64,000 nt of DNA from Gossypium raimondii (lineage: Eukaryota; Streptophyta; Magnoliopsida; Malvales; Malvaceae): positions 3,765,362 to 3,829,361 of the forward strand of contig NC_068566.1 in assembly GCF_025698545.1 (NCBI RefSeq), read 5' to 3'. Under the pieces are notes generated by a model that saw nothing but the letters and a program-made list of their open reading frames with translations, searched no databases and was not told the DNA's origin. A program made the position numbers and the translations under genes. Of the stretch, positions 1,292 to 11,935 are shown one piece after another (position 1 is the stretch's first letter; each line of letters opens with the position of its first letter).

Positions 1292-1300
1292 AATTTCTTT
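1292..1300. repeat. Left 9-bp target-site duplication of the MULE
   Basis: AATTTCTTT directly precedes the left terminal inverted repeat and is repeated exactly at 8255-8263, directly after the right one. A 9-bp duplication is the usual mark of Mutator-superfamily insertion. Confidence 0.95.
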
Positions 1301-1560
1301 GGCTATTTTACCAAACTGAGCCAAAAAAATTTGATATTTATAAAAATGACCCAGGTTTTAAAAAATCACCAAAATAACCTAAAACGAACAATAAAAAAGG
1401 GTTTTGGCATGTCAATGGCCGGCACCACCTGGTATTTTGGACCCATGATTGCCTGATGATTGTGTCACACTTTAAAAAATTAAATTTTTTGGTTCTGGCC
1501 TGTCAATGGCTGGCACCAGTGTATTTTTTTTAAATTGTATCATATTGGTATACACAAATT
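1301..1560 (+). repeat. Left terminal inverted repeat of the MULE
   Basis: Matches the reverse complement of 7996-8254 almost throughout. Shared landmarks are GGCTATTTTACCAAA, the run ATTTGATATTTATAAAAAT, GGACCCATG, GCCTGATGATTGTGTCA and GTATCATA. Differences are scattered substitutions and small indels. Confidence 0.9.
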
Positions 1561-1589
1561 AAAAAAAATTGCACCAAAGAATCTGAAAA

Positions 1590-2010
1590 AAACTTTTAGG
1601 TGTTGGCTCATCAATAACTTTGTACCAAAGAAGAAAAAAATTAGGGTGCTAGCTTGTCAATGACCGACACCAGCAATACGAAAATAAAAAATTGGGTGCT
1701 GGCTTGTTAATGACCCGTACCACCAGCATGAAAAAAAAAATTTGGGTGCTGGCCTGTTAATGGCCGGCACCACTAATACGAAAAAAAAATTGGGTGCTGG
1801 CCTGTCAATGGCTGGCATCACCAGTACAAAAAAAATTTGGGTGCCGGCCTATCAATGGCCGTCACCAATATACGAAAAAAAAATTTGGGTGCTGGCCTGT
1901 CAATAGTTGGCACTAGGATACGAAAAAAAAAATTAGGTGCGAACCTGTCAATGGCTAGCACCAACAGTACAAAAAAAAATTTGGTGCTGGCGTGTCAATG
2001 GCTGACACCA
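1590..2010 (+). repeat. Left subterminal array of about 48-bp hairpin repeats
   Basis: About nine degenerate units of form GGTGCTGGCCTGTCAATGG then CCGGCACCA, separated by A-rich spacers. Two further units lie within the terminal repeat at about 1398 and 1491. Inside each unit GGTGCTGGCC and GGCCGGCACC are near-perfect inverted repeats around the loop TGTCAAT. Spacing is 47-50 bp between about 1650 and 2005. Open frames running through the array are by-products of the repeat and not genes. Confidence 0.9.
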
Positions 2011-2103
2011 AATTTATCAAATATATATAGGTATTTTATCTTCCATTTTATTTGGTTTGAATTTTTTTTTCCTTTGTTTAGAAGAAATCAATTTTTTTTT
2101 AAA
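2011..2103 (+). other. Short spacer before the transposase gene
   Basis: AT-rich sequence between the left repeat array and the first plausible transposase ATG. It includes a TATATATAG string at about 2022-2030 that could have been a promoter element, but nothing else supports that. Confidence 0.3.
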
Positions 2104-4835
2104 ATGAGATCCCAAATGTTGTTTGTTTATGTTCATTTCGATGGAGAAATGATAAATACAACTGAAGAAGGCTGTGTATTTCGAAGCCGAAAAAAAATAG
2201 GAATGAGATTCAACAAACGGATTTCGCGGTCAGATTTAAAACGAAAACCAGTACAAAGATAGCAACCCGTTGCGGAAAGCAAATGTTGAAAATGTTTTAC
2301 AAATTTCCGATTTCAACTGATCCGCTAAAGTTCTCAGAAATGGAGCTTGAAGATGATGATGATTTAGGGACAATGATAGCAATTTATTGCCCCCTAAGAT
2401 AGAAAATCTCAACCCGGTTGAGTTGTTCGCGGAGATAACTGAACCGAATCCCATTCAAGTGGTAATTCCAGCAAGCCAGTGCTCCAGATTTGATTTTGAT
2501 CTTAACGTCTCTTGGGAAGATCAATCGGGTTTTGGACGGTCAACGCCAACTCTTGAAAATTCAAAAACCGGTGGATGTTCGTATAACACCCCAGACTCGT
2601 GTCTTCATATAGAGATCTATCCAGAGGTGTTGGCCACCATAGAAGATAGTGATAAAGGGTCCGATAATAATGATCAGTCCCACCGTGATCCCAACAATGA
2701 TTTTAGTGACCCCGATTTGGATGACATCCCTGAAGACATAGACGATGAAGGGCCAGTAGAGGGTGAAAATACAAACCCCCATTCAGCCAGAAACACAGGC
2801 TCTGGTATAGTTATAAGAAATAATCCAGGGTCCTTCATGACCGACGTGGATCCTGATGCGACTCTTGTACACGAGTTCCCCGAATATACAAATATTGTGC
2901 TGGCTCACCTAGTTGACAATGAATTCGACGAAGAAGAGTTGTTTGTAGGACAACAATTTGATAACAAAAAAGACTGTTTACATGCTGTAAAACAACTTAG
3001 CTTGAAGTTAGGTGTGGATTATAAAGTAACGAAGTCGACGCAGTCTTTGCACGTAAGAGAATGTTGGAAAGTGTCAAGTGGTTGTAAACGGTGTGTCCGA
3101 GACGCGTTAATGCAGTAGATACAGATGTGGATGATAAGGAAACTAGAAGGTCCACACACATGCACGTCCGCTCATATGTCGCAAGACCATGGAAAGTTAG
3201 ATGCAAAAACTATATGCAACTGCATCATCCCTTTGGTGAAAGAGTCGCCCACCATTCAAGTGTCGGTCCTTATTGCGGATATGCAAGCTCGATTCAAGTA
3301 CAAAGTGTCGTACCGAAAGGCATGGTGGGCAAAGCAAATGGCAATGTGAGAGTTGTATGGTGACTGAGATGCGTCATACAACGAGCTTCAAGGGTGGATA
3401 GCTAGGATGCAGGAGTATGTACCGGGGACAGTGACTGATTTGCAAACACTGTTGTATAAAGGCCCTGACCGGGAGATACAACCGGGGAAACAAGTTTTTC
3501 ACCGATTGTTTTGGACGTTCGAGTCGTGTGTTAGGGCCTTCCCTCAGTGCAAGCCGATGGTACAGGTGGACGAGACATGGTTGTATGGAAAATACACGCA
3601 AATCCTCCTGATTGTTGTTGCACAAGACAGCAATCGAAATGTACTTCTGATCACTTTCGCCATCGTGGAGCATGAGTGCTTTGAGTCTTGAGAATTTTTC
3701 CTCACAAATCTGTGGAGGCACATTGTCAGAGAAGACAAAATTTTCCTTATATCAGATAGATCAAAATGATTACTTGCTACGATAAAGCGATCGGAGGTTC
3801 CGTGGAGGTCTATTTATTGCATCTGGCACATCGCGGCAAACTTTCATAGAGATTATAAAAATAAATATTGGAAAAAAGAACTCGTGAACATGGGTAAAAA
3901 AAATTTGTTTGTATTTATTTCAAAAATTACTTTTCAAATTTTTTGTTGTTTTTAAATTGGTGATTTCAAATTAAATATGCAGCCCATGAGTTAGAACTGA
4001 GAAGATTTAGGCAAAGGTTCTCAAGGCTTGAATCTCAGATGTCATCTTTACCAACAAATCTCCAGACATGGTTGGGCAGCATGGAGAACTGGTAATAGAC
4101 TCAAAGTTACAATGAGGGGTTTCGGTATGGGCAGATGACGACTAACTTGGTAGAGACGGTCAACTCTGTATTGAGGCACACACGCCATCTCCCGATTTAT
4201 GTTGTATTCTCAGCAACATTCTATAGGTTGGCGACATTGATGCCTAAGATGGGGTTGAGACAAGCTAAGCAAATTGAGGCCGGGCACGTGTACGTAGAGG
4301 CCGTCCGAAAGGCCATGGCGATAAATAGTGGAAAGGCACAAACAATGAACGCAGAATTGTATTCGCGCGACTTGGAGACTTTTCGAGTTCAGGAGTACAT
4401 CGACCGTCATTCGGGTCTTCCACCTAGGTCGTAGCAGTTGATCTGCGAAACAGGCAATGCGAGTGAAGGATATTTTAGACTCTTCGATATCCATGTGCGC
4501 ATGTTCATGCAGCGTGTGCGAGAGCAAACTTAAATGTTGAACAATTCATAGACGAGATCTACATGTTGCAACACACATTACGTATATGGGGGAACGAATT
4601 TCCTGTAATGCCCGATGTCTCAAACTAGGAAGTTTCACTGCCGGTTATTGAGATGGTGCCTGACTGTAGTCTCCGTAGACATCCTAAAGGTCGACCACAA
4701 TCGACGAGAATTCGAAATGACATGGATGTTAGGGAGACAAGTGAACCCAAACTGTGCACTGCGTGTCGAATATCCGGACACAACCTATCAACATGCTCAC
4801 TTCGTGTCTACGTTTTCGGTTAATCGTCTCGTAAT
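2104..4835 (+). pseudogene. MuDR-type MULE transposase, inactivated
   Basis: Translation from 2104 begins with a FVYVHFDGE-type N-terminus typical of plant MULE transposases and continues, after frameshifts near 2240 and 2390, into an acidic linker (about 2640-2780). Then come a MuDR DNA-binding domain (about 2935-3110, FVGQQFDNKKDCLHAVKQ), the MULE catalytic region (about 3150-3890, including VQVDETWLYGKYTQ), an intron (3894-3982, GT/AG), a C-terminal helical part (about 3983-4434), a SWIM-like zinc motif (about 4465-4515, ending YPCAH) and a CX2CX4HX4C knuckle (about 4755-4796, CTACRISGHNLSTC). From 2390 to 4434 the frame is preserved but broken by stop codons at 3116, 3347, 3365, 3689, 3767, 4093 and 4096. 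A further frameshift lies near 4435, with more stops after it. The order of domains is that of an autonomous MuDR-like element, but this copy cannot make a full protein. Confidence 0.92.
3894..3982 (+). other. Transposase intron
   Basis: GTAAAA donor and ATATGCAG acceptor. Joining the flanks restores a continuous family-like reading (ATG-G/CC-CAT-GAG, M-A-H-E). The DNA between is AT-rich and stop-filled. Confidence 0.7.
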
Positions 4836-5066
4836 GCTGGACTCCAAGATGTCGAGTGTTGGCATGCTTATGCCGCGAGCTTGCCGGAAGATTTAGTTGG
4901 GGATCTGCAGTGTTTGCATGTTTATACCGCAAGCTTTGTCGAACGACAAAGCCGTCTATGAAAACAATGGGCGGTTGCTGCCTTTTACTGCAGTCTTGGG
5001 CATTATACGAATGTCATTTCTGGCATCAGTGAGCCACCAACCGTATGTCTGGCCACTCGTTAATAG

Positions 5067-5168
5067 GTAAATATGTAGTTCAATTTTGCCATCTATTTTT
5101 TTATTGTATACTATAATATACTTATTTTTTGCATGGGAAAAATAATTTGGTAATTTTTCTTTTTTTAG
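5067..5168 (+). other. PMD pseudogene intron 1
   Basis: Donor GTAAATATG and acceptor TTTTTTTAG. Joining gives PLVNR-WVNVPGIGR, the expected PMD order. Confidence 0.75.
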
Positions 5169-5250
5169 ATGGGTAAATGTACCGGGAATCGGGCGATCGT
5201 TCACCATACCTATGTACCGTATGATGATAGAGACTCATTTCGGGGATGGC

Positions 5251-5331
5251 GTAAAATACGATTCTGAATATTTCTTTTTTAAATACAATAATTGTACAAT
5301 AAAAAAATAATGTGTTGTCTTTATTTTGTAG
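5251..5331 (+). other. PMD pseudogene intron 2
   Basis: Donor GTAAAATAC and acceptor TTATTTTGTAG. Joining gives HFGDG-FIWMSY in one frame. Confidence 0.75.
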
Positions 5332-6249
5332 TTTATATGGATGTCATATAATAAGGAAGATATCGCGGCGCTCATACCATCATGGGTTATCGAGCAACAA
5401 CAGTTGTTCGTGTCAAATGTGCCATTGATTCATTTCTATATGGTGGAATGGCACGATGGAAGTCAGATTTTAATGCAGTTCGGTTGCGCACAACCTATCC
5501 TGAACCCTCCCGTCGACATCAAAGAAGTCCATGGAATGGATAAAAAAGGTTCGGGTCGGGACGCTTTAAATTGGGCTCAAAAACATGAACCGTATATCTT
5601 TCTGTAGAATCAGCGACATTCGAGGCGCCCTTCTTTGTATGTCGTAGACCCTCCTACGCCCAAGTACGCAACATGATATATGGCATACGGGAAACCCTTT
5701 ATATTCCAAGGTCAGTACATGTTGATCCAAAGAGACACGCAACTTGAATATTCTCGATGGCAACCAAAGAACGCACAACCGTGCAACAACTGAGTTCCGC
5801 CATTCGGGAACATCGAGTCTGATACTGCCTCAAACCCCAATCTCAAGGCCCAATATGAAGCATCCTACTCATCATCACACAACATGGATCCGGATCTGCT
5901 GCATGAAATTTCTTCATCGTTCGAAGATATTTTTGGTGACGACCTCGAACCCCAACATTCAACACGATCCGGATCATCCTCATACCACCTGGAGTTTCAT
6001 TCCGAAGCACATACACCCACCACTGAGAATATTTTTCCATCGACACCTCCGATCACGCAATACCAATTAACTATCGATTATAGTGCATATGATTATTCTA
6101 CATTTCTAAGTACACCGGACGGGACACCGGACCGAACGCCGAACCAAGCAATAATCAAACGCCTCAACAAGGTGCACGACATCACCGACGGAGGCATCCG
6201 AACCGTTACACGCCAGCACCAGGGACATCACTGGGAACGCGACATTTTG

Positions 6250-7240
6250 AATTTTTTTATGTTAATTTTTACTTTATTTTAAAATTATTCTGTAAATATT
6301 TCTTTTATTTTTAAATTTTTCTATTTTAAATATTAATTTAATTTCTGTAAAATAATAATTTGTTTGAGTAAATGACTTCGTAATATTTAAAAATAATAAT
6401 TCAAATGAGTAATACTACACAATAAATTAAATTTATATACACAATAAAATACAATCATTCTACAATATTAATACAAAAAAGTTCAAACAAAATAATATGC
6501 ACTATATTAAATTTAAACACTCAATGAACTACAAGCAGATGGGTAAAATTAATACACCAAAATTTAATTCTCAAACTTTATATATTACAGATTAAATTAA
6601 ATTTACATATAAAATATAAATATTCTAAGAAATTTTTACGAAAATATAAAAATGAAAACTTTAAATCCTAAACAACTATATTAAATTTACAGATATAAAA
6701 AAAATACAAACATTCTTAAGAAATAATACAATTATTTTCAATACTAGTTTCTTCACAATTAATCGCTTTCTGCTTGAATCAGGTCTATGTTGCATCGGTA
6801 CTAGTTTCTTCACAATTAATCGTAATCTGCTCTAGACATTTTCTTCTTCCATTGTCCCATGAGATACCTTTGCATGGAGACTCTACCAATCAGTTCCAAC
6901 CACAACCTAGTTGCGGAATAAATATTATTGCACCATAGATAATGCTCATCTGTGTTGGACAACTCGATTAGCCATCTACGGTGCAAATAATCATCCAACC
7001 CTTAATGGCATAACCTTTAGGGTGGACATGACAGTATATAATTCAACTCCATTAAAATATGACAGTATATAATTCAACCCCAAATTTGGTTGCACACTAC
7101 GAAAAACTCCATATACAATCCACTCTAAAAAAACTCATTTGATGATATACTACAAAACACTCTCATTTTGATGGCTTTCTCAAAATATTTTTTCTCATTC
7201 CATTTACACTATCAGAACCCAAACCACCCACTATATATAA
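6250..7240. other. AT-rich non-coding interior of the MULE
   Basis: No gene supported. It holds a 24-bp exact direct repeat (6742-6765 and 6799-6822). A 60-codon minus-strand open frame (6816-6998) lacks an ATG and resembles nothing I recognise. Confidence 0.6.
6742..6822. repeat. 24-bp direct repeat pair
   Basis: TACTAGTTTCTTCACAATTA plus four more bases occurs at 6742-6765 and again at 6799-6822. This is a local duplication of 57 bp period. Confidence 0.85.
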
Positions 7241-7244
7241 AGTT

Positions 7245-7975
7245 TAATGTCGGCCATTAGAAGGTCAATACCTAAAATTATTTTTTTCAGTGCCTTTGGT
7301 GCCGCCATTGTGACCAACACCAAAAAAAAAAAATTAAATGCAGTGGTGCCGACCATTGACAAGCCAAAGACCCAAAAAAAATTTTCATACCGGTTGTGCC
7401 AGTCATTGACAAGCCAACACCAAAAAAAAAAATTGTACTGGTGGTGTCAGCCATTGACAAGCCAGCACCCAAAAAATATTTTTTTTCCTACTGGTGGTGC
7501 TAGCCATTAATAGGCTAGCTCCAAAAAAAAAAATTTTGTACTGGAGTTACCGACCATTGACAGCCAAAGACCCAAAAAATTATTTTTTTCTTGCTTTCGT
7601 GTCGGTTCACGAGCCAACACCCAAAAAAATTTTTCAGATATCGGTGTTGACCATTGACAAAGCCAAAGACAAAAAAAATTTTCATCTTCTTTGTGCGAGG
7701 CCATTAATGAGCCAACACCCAAAAAAAACTTTTTTTTCGTATAATGGTACCGGCCATTGACAGGCCAGAACCCCAAAAAAAATTTCGTATTGGTGATGCC
7801 GACCATTGATAGGCCATTACCCAAAAAAAAATTTTCGTACTGGTGGTGCCGACCATTGACAAGCCAGCACCCAAAAAAAAAATTTTCGTACTACTGGTGC
7901 TGGTCATTGACAGGTCAGCACCCAAAAAAAAAATTTTTTGTACTGCTGGTGTCAGCTATTGACAGGCTAGCACCC
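7245..7975 (-). repeat. Right subterminal array of hairpin repeats, inverted to the left array
   Basis: About 15 degenerate units of form CCATTGACAGGCCAGCACC separated by A-rich spacers. They are the reverse complement of the left-array unit. Two more units lie in the right terminal repeat (about 8040 and 8135). The least degenerate units are nearest the end of the element (about 7745-7970), and units become more diverged toward the interior. Confidence 0.9.
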
Positions 7976-7995
7976 AAATTTTTTTTGTTTTTTTT

Positions 7996-8254
7996 ATTTT
8001 TGTATACCAGTATGATACGATTTAAAAAAATACACTAGTGTCAACCATTGACAAGCCAAAACCAAAAAAATTCAATTTTTTAAAGTCTGACACAATCATC
8101 AGGCAACCATGGGTCCAAAATATCAAGTGATGTCGGCCATTGACAGGCCAAAACCCCTTTTTATTGTTCATTTCAGGTTATTTTAGTGATTACTTTTAAA
8201 CCTGAGTAATTTTTATAAATATCAAATTTTTTGGGTCAATTTGGTAAAATAGCC
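7996..8254 (-). repeat. Right terminal inverted repeat of the MULE
   Basis: Reverse complement of the left terminus (1301-1560). The last 12 bases are GGTAAAATAGCC. Confidence 0.9.
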
Positions 8255-8263
8255 AATTTCTTT
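8255..8263. repeat. Right 9-bp target-site duplication of the MULE
   Basis: AATTTCTTT, identical to 1292-1300. Confidence 0.95.
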
Positions 8264-9889: not shown

Positions 9890-10466
9890 TAGGGATTGTA
9901 AAAACTCAAATTTAATAGGTTTCAATTTGACTTAATTTTTTAAGGTCGATTTTTTGAAAAAAATCGAGTTTAGGTGAATTGATTTGGGTAAAATTAAAGA
10001 AATAGTTCAGTTGGGTTGTGGTCGGGTTTGAGGTAAATTTGGCTCAACCGTTTCAAGACATTTACAAAAATGTCCCTAATATATATAAAGTTTTTGCTTT
10101 CAATATATATATATATATCTATCTATCTAAACTAAAAATAATAATCTTATTTGCTTCAAATAAGAATGGCTTAAGGGTGTAAAAAGCCCTCAAACTTTTT
10201 CAAAAAAAAATCAATTAAGCCCCCCCTTTTTTTTGCACTCAATTAGGTATTTGAACTTTCAAAATGCATCAAAAAGGCCCTCAAACTTTCTCAAAAAAGC
10301 AATTAAGCCCCTGTTTCTTCTTCTTCTTCTTTTTGCACTCAATTGAGTATTTGAACTGCCAAAATGCATTAAAAGGACCCTCAAACTTTTTCAAAAAATG
10401 CAATTAAACCCCTGCTCCTTTTTTTGCAATAATTGGGTACTTGAATATCCCAAATGCATCAAAAAG

Positions 10467-10773
10467 GCCGGGGGCGAATCTAGGGAGGTTGACAAGGGCC
10501 CTGACCCCCCTACAATGGAAAATTTTTCATTTAGGCCCTTTATAATTTGTAAAATTTTAAATTAGTAATGGTAAAATTGCACTTTGACCCCCAAAATCAT
10601 AAAAAATTTGATTTAATCCTCCAAAAGTTATAAAGATATAGGCTATTAGAATGACGAAATTGTATTTTTACTATCATAAAAATATATAATTTAATTCTAC
10701 CCAAAAAAATTTTCTAACTTCACCCCTGGCCCCCCCCCCCCAAGGCATATTTTTGGATCCCCCACTAAAAAAG
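10467..10773. mobile_element. hAT-like MITE copy in the left arm
   Basis: Homologous to 44183-44442 and, inverted, to 31429-31653. Shared words are AATTTTTCATTTA, GTAATGGTAAAATT(G/A)CACTTTGA and TTTTACTATCATAAAA. It is interrupted near its right end by a C-rich run (about 10728-10742). Confidence 0.75.
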
Positions 10774-11176
10774 GCCCTTTGACCGTTAACTTTAACGATT
10801 GACCATTAACTTTAACGGTTGACCATTAAAGTTAGTTGCCCCTAATTTTTTCAGTTAAAGGCACCACGTGTCACAATCATGACGTGACATATGGCAAAAA
10901 ATGATAAAAATAAATAAAAATTATTAAATTTTAATAAAAATGTAAAAAATATAAATTTTATTAAAATAGTACAAAATTATAAAAATTGTAAAATTTTATA
11001 AAAATCGTAAAAAAATATAAAATATATAGAAATGTAGAAAAAAAATTATAAAATTTTATAAAGTCATAAGAAAATTAAAAAAATGTAAAGAAATATAAAA
11101 TTCGTAAAAAATTATAAAACTTATCAGACCAAAAAAAGCATTTTATAATTTTTCTAAACGATAAAATGGCTTTTTT

Positions 11177-11464
11177 AGTGGCGGATCCAAAAATACGACT
11201 TAGGGGCAGGGGCAAAGTCGAAAATATTTTGGGGGCAGAATTAAATTATATATTTTTATGATAGTAAAAATGCAATTTTATCATTTTAATAGTCTATATC
11301 TTTATAACTTTTAGAATATTAAATCATTTTTTATCATTTGGGGGGCAAAGTGCAATTTTACCATTGCTAATTTAAAATTTTATAAATTATAAAGGGCCTA
11401 AATGAAATTTTTTCTATTTTAGGGTGGGTCAAGGTCCCTGCCAGCCCCCTAGATCCACCCATAG
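11177..11464. mobile_element. hAT-like MITE copy in the right arm, inverted
   Basis: Begins TAGTGGCGGATCC and is the reverse complement of the left-arm copy. It shares TTTTATGATAGTAAAAATG and TTGCTAATTTAAAATTTTAT with the family. Confidence 0.75.
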
Positions 11465-11935
11465 CCTTTTTGATGCATTTTGGCAATTCAAGTATCCAAT
11501 TAAGTGCAAAAAAAAAGGGGGACTTAATTGCTTTTTTTGAAAAGTTTGAGGGCATTTTTGATGCATTTTGGTAGTTCAAGCACCTAATTGAATGAAAAAA
11601 AAAGCAGGGGCTTAATTGCTTCTTTTTTTTTTTTTTGAAAAAGGTCTTTTTTATGCATATTGAAAGTTCAAGTACCCAATTGAATGCAACAAAAAAAATA
11701 GGGGCTTAATTGCTTTTTTTGAAAAAGTTTGAAGGCTTTTTACACCCTCAAGCCAATAAAAAATAAAACAATTAAACTAAATTTGGGTTGGAGTCTGTTC
11801 TCCTATTAAATTTTGAGTTCGAGGTAGATTTTTTTCTTAAAAATCGAGGTCAAGGTGAATTGGTCAAGCTTTGGGTCAGGGTCAGAGCAGGCAAAAATCT
11901 GCCTTGCCACGCTCCATTGCCATCCCTATTCAAAA

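Follow-up and report, generated by a model that had tools for sequence, protein, structure and literature searches.

Oriented Tandem Arrays at Both Ends of a Decayed Gossypium raimondii MULE as Putative Protein-Binding Half-Sites

The analyzed window, a stretch of 64,000 nucleotides from Gossypium raimondii, contains a decayed MULE whose two ends carry tandem arrays of a short unit in opposite orientations. These arrays may be oriented, iterated binding half-sites, most likely for the MULE transposase; judging from the sequence, the chance that this assumption is correct is slightly below even. Conservation of the unit is highest in a short one-sided sequence and not in the hairpin; this points more to rows of docking sites for a protein than to RNA hairpins.

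The Element and Its Arrays

The element is 6954 bp long and its ends (window positions 1301 and 8254) were determined using the TIR alignment and the TSD. The span initially given by the sequence-only reading, 1590–7975, lies inside these ends. Two more units per end were found outside it, in the outer TIR (at 1400, 1491, 8037 and 8129). The following features were identified.

1301..8254, plus strand: whole MULE, 6954 bp, tips GGCTATTTTACC...GGTAAAATAGCC, based on TIR alignment and TSD
1292..1300, no strand: left copy of the TSD, AATTTCTTT, perfect over 9 bp, identical to 8255–8263
8255..8263, no strand: right copy of the TSD, AATTTCTTT, matching 1292–1300
1301..1560, plus strand: left outer TIR, among 44 aligned intact-tip TIRs from the examined loci
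7995..8254, minus strand: right outer TIR, 89% identity to the left outer TIR (~260 bp)
1400..1426, plus strand: left tip unit 1, GGTTTTGGC..., with unit positions 4–5 reading TT in 20 of 26 arms
1491..1517, plus strand: left tip unit 2, GGTTCTGGC..., with unit positions 4–5 reading TC in 18 of 26 arms
1595..2010, plus strand: left array, nine HMM units (a degenerate one at ~1595, cores at 1645, 1695, 1745, 1793, 1840, 1888, 1936 and 1983)
7247..7978, minus strand: right array, 14 HMM units including degenerate ones
7246, 7345, 7395, 7443, 7496, 7546, 7693, 7746, 7795, 7845, 7896 and 7948, minus strand: core matches of the right array
8037..8063, minus strand: right tip unit 2, core match and HMM
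8129..8155, minus strand: right tip unit 1, core match and HMM
2363..3118, plus strand: ORF with a partial MuDR DNA-binding domain (PF03108, E 2.2e-4, below the curated cutoff)
3368..3691, plus strand: ORF with a partial MULE domain, broken transposase (PF10551, E 1.3e-3, below the cutoff)
5332..5607, plus strand: ORF with a partial plant mobile domain, PMD (PF10536, E 5.6e-7, below the cutoff)

The earlier assignment to MULEs was supported by the 9-bp TSD and by broken frames whose matches to PF03108 and PF10551 do not reach the curated Pfam cutoffs. The element thus has a TSD within the 8–11 bp range, long TIRs and a MULE/MuDR transposase, the latter in broken frames with below-cutoff matches; like foldback-type elements, it has TIRs with tandem repeats of variable number. 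Apart from one noise match, a Pfam scan of seven ORFs of the element returned pieces of the DNA-binding, MULE and PMD domains, and pieces similar to the broken transposase occur in longer ORFs elsewhere in the genome. The arms of the element (1299–1860 and 7699–8256) align with 77% identity over 580 columns, so they are able to pair with each other, as had been proposed.

Repeat, core and HMM searches all confirmed arrays of ~48-bp units in opposite orientation at both MULE ends. Tandem arrays with a period of ~48–51 bp were located at 1634–2010 and 7343–7978. The 27-bp unit core, GGTGCTGGCCTGTCAATGGCCGGCACC, was found at 10 left positions with at most 5 mismatches, while the chance level was a mean of 0.33 matches (one strand, at most 10 mismatches, three mono-shuffles of the window). 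The unit HMM detected 11 left units (plus strand) and 16 right units (minus strand); in shuffled sequence totaling 193 kb it gave 0 matches of at least 5 bits. Inside 1590–7975 the HMM counts are 9 and 14, in good agreement with the nine left and about fifteen right units noticed by eye.

Copies of the Family in the Genome

A test set in advance was whether the arrays are incidental, i.e., absent from other family copies, and the copies examined do not bear this out. Units were present behind the tip at 15 of 15 further outer-TIR matches, with 3–14 units in the same orientation; these tips were all the remaining full-length matches to an outer-TIR query that included the two tip units and no array. 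Loci that had been picked by an array match provide no test of this kind. The scored candidates were 40 of 248 in the array search and 40 of 506 in the outer-TIR search, so that the copy numbers are lower bounds. In the 44 aligned TIRs the tip units are located at columns 101 and 192, and they carry position-specific letters (26 of 28 arms, two arms without tips being excluded and a few of the 26 having damaged tips). Among the 15 loci with paired ends, six have a TSD that matches at 9 of 9 bases, in one of them shifted by 1 base. One more locus matches at 8 of 9, and the remaining eight have no good TSD.

Array length, which the sequence-only reading had proposed to compare between copies, indeed varies widely, from 3 units per end in the copy C10_5.97 to 24 at one end of C12_34.2, and a few family ends have just one unit beyond the two tip units. 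In C8_58.33 and C9_41.66 the spacings alternate between ~51 and ~60 bp, showing local duplication. Homogenization of units within an arm is real but weak (similarity 0.749 vs. 0.724, 0 of 500 permutations; the comparison covered arms of at least 6 units and units of at most 10 mismatches). Strong local homogenization was rejected, as neighboring units are no more alike than distant ones (0.724 vs. 0.754), perhaps because the spacings alternate.

The varying length, the local duplication, the weak homogenization and the amplification of the unit in a satellite of ~24 kb would fit arrays that are a functionless by-product, with replication slippage having duplicated units in tandem inside a long TIR. 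Slippage, one of the proposals of the sequence-only reading, is plausible for array length, but it does not explain why the core is sharper than the trailing spacer. In addition, units occur at 15 of 15 tips, a sister family has arrays too, and a more distant family has arrays built around a similar core. A purely neutral origin is considered unlikely.

The satellite is a single cluster on C6 with a higher-order repeat of ~591 bp and about four units per repeat, and for this reason it looks derived. Among the BLAST matches listed, the unit-bearing part alone matched the examined elements. The unit does exist in a satellite, but a satellite origin was rejected, the better reading being that the satellite was derived from a TIR array. 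Units were not found mainly as long, element-independent head-to-tail arrays; in most other loci they adjoin a TIR tip. C8_58.33 (14 units) and a 24-unit run in C12_56.97 had no adjoining tip within the stretch examined.

Hairpin Pairing of the Unit

The units had been described as having a near-perfect stem. They do pair, but most copies have an imperfect stem, and even the consensus has a T-G pair, at positions 6/22, that is kept in 297 of 361 units. This set was obtained from 545 units by removing 91 with more than 9 mismatches (leaving 454) and then 93 satellite units. Stem pairing in the 361 units was 0.819 compared with 0.816 ± 0.002 for shuffled partners, and 46 of 500 within-locus permutations of the halves reached the observed value. 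The mean fold energy was −10.8 kcal/mol, compared with −10.5 for half-swapped and −5.2 for mono-shuffled units. Compensated double changes were slightly above expectation (64 vs. 55), and this small excess does not go beyond chance; neither column shuffles nor half swaps of the 361 units revealed significant covariation of the stem halves.

These results bear on the proposal that the arrays are a source of RNA, with read-through transcripts folding as single units or arm on arm and giving rise to small RNAs by which the family is silenced or regulated. The units fold better than mono-shuffles, the arms are 77% alike, and siRNAs have been linked to long MULE TIRs in the text available for PMC6446971. 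Sister-family units also retain 6.8 of 10 pairs compared with 4.0 when the left half is shuffled, 10 of 26 of them having at least 8. Nevertheless, the halves do not covary significantly, and pairing in the sister family is weaker (6.8 vs. 8.2 of 10 stem pairs) while the right half is retained. Moreover, long arms suffice for double-stranded RNA, which leaves the unit structure unexplained. Although some sister units still fold, the proposal is weakened and is considered improbable; the column shuffles and half swaps gave no support for a function of the unit as an RNA hairpin, with pairing partly kept in the sister family. A hairpin-shaped repeat should not be equated with an RNA structure: here the fold is plain by eye, and the halves do not co-evolve.

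Conservation of the Core and Related Families

The best-kept part of the unit is the right half-site TGGCCGGCACCA, with the core CGGCACC. Mean conservation was 0.866 in the right half and 0.799 in the left half (column counts of 361 units). In 204 array units, with units of more than 8 mismatches left out, the core and the next A are conserved at 0.58–0.99, and the next 8 columns drop to 0.31–0.66. The T-run to the left of the core is also well kept (0.83–0.93), so the edge of conservation is sharp on one side only. Because resemblance to the core or half-site was the basis on which units were gathered, the apparent conservation of the core is inflated. Conservation is also partly due to descent, as unit columns of the outer TIR have only a small lead over non-unit columns (0.966 vs. 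0.943 for A/T and 0.858 vs. 0.834 for G/C).

The sister family retains the right half-site ATGGCCGGCACC, and its left half drifts. At one cutoff, the sister family gave 26 right-half and 10 left-half matches, compared with 0.5 and 0.65 in shuffles; the 26 include a probably spurious match at position 476 of L052. The arms of the window element gave 25 and 24. In the more distant MULE family, the arrays are 27-bp ones based on GGCGGCACC. Three of its elements, with ends tied by a TSD (9 of 9, 8 of 9 and 9 of 10 bases), have arrays at both ends with identical or similar unit variants. In L051 and L054/L068, whose ends are tied by no TSD, the right region contains a single site. Among 11 left-end regions an array was not seen in L053 (no match to the left-end query) or L057 (weak match), and among six right-end regions the motif was not found in L065 and L066, where the ends were not located. 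CGGCACC words also occur in isolation inside L050 and L051.

Proposed Function of the Arrays

Multimerized transposase-binding sites are the best supported of the three original proposals, with indirect evidence from conservation. The arrays would be rows of oriented sites for a protein acting on the element ends. The likeliest candidate is the MULE transposase, whose MuDR-type DNA-binding domain would make the contact. The two tip sites, 101 and 192 bp from the end, and a third at ~280–300 bp could be the basic recognition sites, which the inner array would multiply while growing and shrinking by slippage or unequal exchange. In the window family the unit carries an inverted left half and hence resembles a hairpin; this half could suit a dimer and is less strictly kept in relatives. 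Protein binding, the transposase as the binder and an effect of copy number on mobility are all inferred here from sequence.

A broader and doubtful possibility is that several MULE-PMD families of this genome share the recognition core CGGCACC and that each has amplified it into an array of a distinct type at either end. The two ends would change together, and the rest of the unit, hairpins included, would turn over freely. If so, the ends would be evolving docking platforms whose copy number and unit variant adjust them to one transposase or anti-silencing protein as opposed to related ones. Between the arrays of the three related families, unit, period and pairing vary and the short core is common to all, so the idea can be tested directly. 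The case bears on why MULE ends are so long and variable and why foldback-type ends recur across unrelated transposons.

Comparison with Known Elements

Foldback elements named FARE were reportedly described in Arabidopsis by Windsor and Waddell in 2000. As described in citing papers, FARE are plant foldback MULEs with long palindromic repeats at both ends, like the element studied here, and with a reported MULE-domain transposase. The sequence-only reading gave this exact layout as not known from a described MULE, but the parts of the sources available report tandem repeats in the TIRs of Muta1, Tm1 and Galileo. Foldback-type MULEs with TIR arrays are already known (Muta1, Tm1), and the present layout is a variant of them.

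According to the available text of PMC5225508, Muta1 and other type 2 foldback MULEs of Aedes aegypti likewise have an 8–9 bp TSD and a complex TIR that combines a terminal motif with tandem repeats in subterminal position (a 12-bp repeat in 9 copies, the number varying among derivatives). The element described here differs in its 27-bp core repeated every ~48–60 bp, its plant host, its PMD fragment and its tip units 91 bp apart. Tm1 of root-knot nematodes also has a 9-bp TSD, composite TIRs, a MULE-domain transposase and MITE-like copies, but its TIR motif, variable in number, is short (~14 bp) and its transposase is of the Phantom type (PMC3169594, in part). Galileo of Drosophila has long TIRs with tandem repeats, and its transposase DNA-binding domain binds sites within them; unlike the window element, it belongs to the P superfamily, with three sites identified and no dense array in the passages concerned (PMC3688188). 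Plant MULEs with tandem TIRs also have duplicated TIR material, for which slippage was proposed, but there entire TIRs are duplicated and no many-fold short unit is described in the part available (PMC3310237). The window family was not recognized among the titles and abstract openings listed in searches of open-licence papers, and the unit had no match in the viral contigs scanned.

VANDAL elements of Arabidopsis are MULEs with a short tandem-repeated motif that differs among related elements and is bound by VANC proteins. In the passages available, this motif is 8–9 bp long and lies in non-coding regions (PMC5735166), and the TIRs are absent or short (PMC6446971). By analogy, the arrays could be targets of an element-encoded accessory protein, possibly the PMD protein, that binds the motif and lifts host silencing. 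A PMD fragment is present in the window element, VANC motifs form fast-changing tandem repeats (PMC5735166, PMC10398659, in part), and Ikeda et al. speculated on anti-silencing by MULE-captured PMD (PMC5418596, in part). The agreement of unit variants between both ends of distant-family elements would fit as well, and so would the C-to-T change in TIR columns, which is lower inside units (0.104) than outside them (0.151). On the other hand, C-to-T and G-to-A are the dominant changes in the units, so these are not spared methylation damage; such a target would not need its units to lie in the two TIRs with a fixed placing of the tip units, and literature passages on the PMD mention no DNA-binding function. 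This role has a small probability. In the whole element, the VANC21/VANC6 target motifs (as given in the available part of PMC5735166) are not iterated in arrays and AGTTGTAC is absent; one YAGTATTAY (6409) and one AGTTGTCC (6957) were found, each on the minus strand and neither of them within an array.

Organization of the window element

The element in the window is a decayed MULE of the foldback type, whose terminal inverted repeats (TIRs) contain arrays of a palindrome-like 27-bp unit:

1301–8254: whole decayed MULE, 6,954 bp, both ends starting with GGCTATTTTACC
1292–1300 and 8255–8263: perfect 9-bp target duplication AATTTCTTT flanking the MULE

In a Pfam scan, internal open pieces gave partial matches to the MuDR DNA-binding, MULE and plant mobile (PMD) domains, each under the curated cutoff, as is expected because the frames are broken. 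Tandem Repeats Finder located arrays with a 48–51 bp period at 1634–2010 and 7343–7978. Using an HMM of the unit, 11 units were found at the left end and 16 at the right end in opposed orientations, and no units were found in 193 kb of shuffled DNA. The repeated-unit arrays proposed in the sequence-only reading are thus real and its description of the sequence holds; the interval assigned to them (1590–7975) misses two units per end, which lie in the outer TIR. Over 580 columns, the left arm shares 77% identity with the right.

Both the presence of PMDs in plant MULEs (PMC6446971) and the MULE–PMD association (PMC6446971, PMC5418596) are already known from plants. At several places in the genome, MULE and PMD matches lie about 2–3 kb apart, some on opposite strands.

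Units at other ends of the family

In the same genome, at least 91 array matches (unit-array search) and at least 55 outer-TIR matches were found, both being lower bounds with 40 candidates scored in each search. All 15 loci with two pairable ends have units at each end, oppositely oriented; the number ranges from 3 per end at C10_5.97 to 24 at one end of C12_34.2. An array match was the reason for picking most of these loci, so their arrays prove little. The 15 remaining full-length outer-TIR matches provided a fairer sample, and about 0.9–1.1 kb behind each was examined. All 15 have both tip units (the outermost two), which the query itself included, and, farther in, one or more extra units oriented the same way, which argues against the arrays being incidental and lacking in other family copies. 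The same-orientation units at these ends number 3 to 14, with at least 5 in 12 of the 15. At three loci (L042, L047 and L049), 3, 4 and 4 such units are followed by units in the opposite orientation, and at L040 the third unit is followed by a 680-bp gap.

In 44 aligned TIRs whose tips are intact, the tip units begin at columns 101 and 192. Unit positions 4–5 are TT in tip unit 1 (20 of 26 arms), TC in tip unit 2 (18/26) and GC in the third unit (21/26). These fixed columns and position-specific letters indicate that the ends combine a fixed portion with a variable one. Two copies with 9/9 target site duplications, C4_12.6 (1,418 bp) and C9_41.66 (3,015 bp), are too small to hold the full gene region and have moved with their arrays.

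Some loci have a complex structure. At L022 (C5:30.834–30.837 Mb), two short element copies abut in opposite orientations, with an 8/9 target duplication at the outermost ends. L009 and L032 (C12:34.207–34.218 Mb) together have a single left TIR and a pair of right TIRs, and past each right TIR the left flank recurs in reverse complement (53/60 bases), as if host flank had been copied inverted along with the arm; such a copy was absent from the other nine loci compared. The region C8:58.3195–58.3319 Mb contains a TIR tip with an array (L048), a 14-unit array with spacing alternating between about 51 and 57–62 bp (L026, where no right TIR tip was found) and, at 58323544, an open frame of 377 aa with a transposase match.

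Pairing, conservation and putative function of the unit

The mean fold energy of the units is -10.8 kcal/mol versus -5.2 for mono-shuffles, which favors the earlier proposal that the arrays are a source of hairpin RNAs. Under selection on pairing, the halves of one unit should match better than halves across units. Among 361 non-satellite units, the paired fraction of stem cells was 0.819 versus 0.816 ± 0.002 with shuffled partners, and 0.643 versus 0.637 ± 0.003 when only Watson–Crick pairs were counted. When right halves were permuted within a locus, 46 of 500 permutations reached the observed pairing; the fold energy after half-swapping was -10.5 kcal/mol, near that observed. Compensated double changes numbered 64 versus 55 expected, most of them in two pairs; this slight excess could be explained by shared descent. 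The hairpin-RNA proposal is weakened by this closeness to shuffled partners.

Mean conservation is 0.866 in the right half and 0.799 in the left half (column counts, 361 units). In 204 array units, the core and the next A show conservation of 0.58–0.99 and the eight columns after them 0.31–0.66, a contrast that is partly built in because the units were collected by core similarity; the T-run before the core is likewise well kept.

The location of the units at both ends in inverted orientation, the fixed tip sites with a multiplied inner set, and a core kept better than the spacer or the pairing suggest that the arrays are most likely iterated protein-binding half-sites. This is the best supported of the readings, including those proposed earlier. 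The oriented core of each unit would be a half-site for a protein acting at the element ends. The transposase would be the first candidate, since end recognition is its job and the two short copies, under full-gene length, moved with arrays. A precedent is Galileo: its DNA-binding domain binds sites in the tandem repeats of its TIR (PMC3688188). Muta1, an active mosquito MULE, has nine 12-bp subterminal repeats in each TIR (PMC5225508).

The main rival is that the arrays are an anti-silencing target, as for VANC, the anti-silencing protein of VANDAL MULEs. VANC motifs likewise form tandem repeats (PMC5735166), and Ikeda et al. speculated that a MULE-captured PMD serves anti-silencing (PMC5418596). 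VANC motifs are not iterated in the window element.

Related families

A sister family is represented by L050 (C3:39.68 Mb) and the related L052. The MULE piece of L050 is 77% identical in protein, and the ends of L050, at 1652 and 8644, show the same arrangement as the window element. Typical sister units (GGTTTTGGGACACTGATGGCCGGCACC) keep the right half-site, but not the inner left half and loop: at one cutoff, the sister arms contain 26 right and 10 left half-site matches, and the window arms 25 and 24. Of 10 stem pairs, an average of 6.8 are formed in sister units, 8.2 in window-arm units under the same detection and 4.0 with the left half shuffled; at least 8 are formed in 10 of 26 sister units. 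Pairing in the sister family is weakened, not lost. Distances from the end to the starts of the first three sister units are about 100, 191 and 280 bp, close to the 101 and 192 of the window family.

L051 and its relatives form a more distant family with MULE pieces 68–75% identical and, in several elements, the PMD on the opposite strand. 27-bp arrays based on GGCGGCACC were found behind the left end in L051 and in 8 of 11 left-end regions. The ends of the C7:47.36 Mb element are tied by the target duplication CTCTTTATC (9/9), and those of the C5:43.70 and C9:3.60 elements by duplications of 8/9 and 9/10, found by eye. All three have inverted arrays at both ends, and the unit variants of the two ends are identical or closely alike. 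L051 and L054/L068 contain a single site in the right region, and a target duplication tying their ends was not seen; these right regions may not be the true partners of the left ends. The motif was not found in the right-end regions L065 and L066. Outside GGCGGCACC, the unit varies among elements, with GGCACCAATGGTGCC palindromes in some and GGGAACCC in others. The word CGGCACC, usually followed by A, is common to the window and distant families, a likeness in sequence that is suggestive, though not proof, of homology. Lone CGGCACC words are present inside elements, and two occur in the 56 kb of the window outside the element.

Array turnover and other repeats

Unit likeness is 0.749 for units of one arm, 0.754 for units in opposite arms of the same element and 0.724 for units of different elements, and none of 500 permutations reached the observed within-arm value. 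Homogenisation within arms is thus real but weak; therefore, the window arrays look old rather than recently burst. Slippage, also proposed earlier, would make array length drift, which is supported by the alternating spacings of some arrays.

A satellite of about 24 kb with a higher-order repeat of about 591 bp was found at L023–L025 (C6:4,899,000–4,926,500). Each repeat contains about four MULE-array units in a single orientation and about 400 bp of other sequence. A comparable case is the foldback element Tetris, where repeats of the TIR gave rise to a satellite (PMC4079207).

The window also contains a different foldback-like structure (10167–11755), around which no target duplication was clear by eye. 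It consists of inverted tandem arrays of about 88–100 bp units with a middle of about 1 kb, and its left tip is TGGCTTAAGGGTGTAAAAAGCCC.
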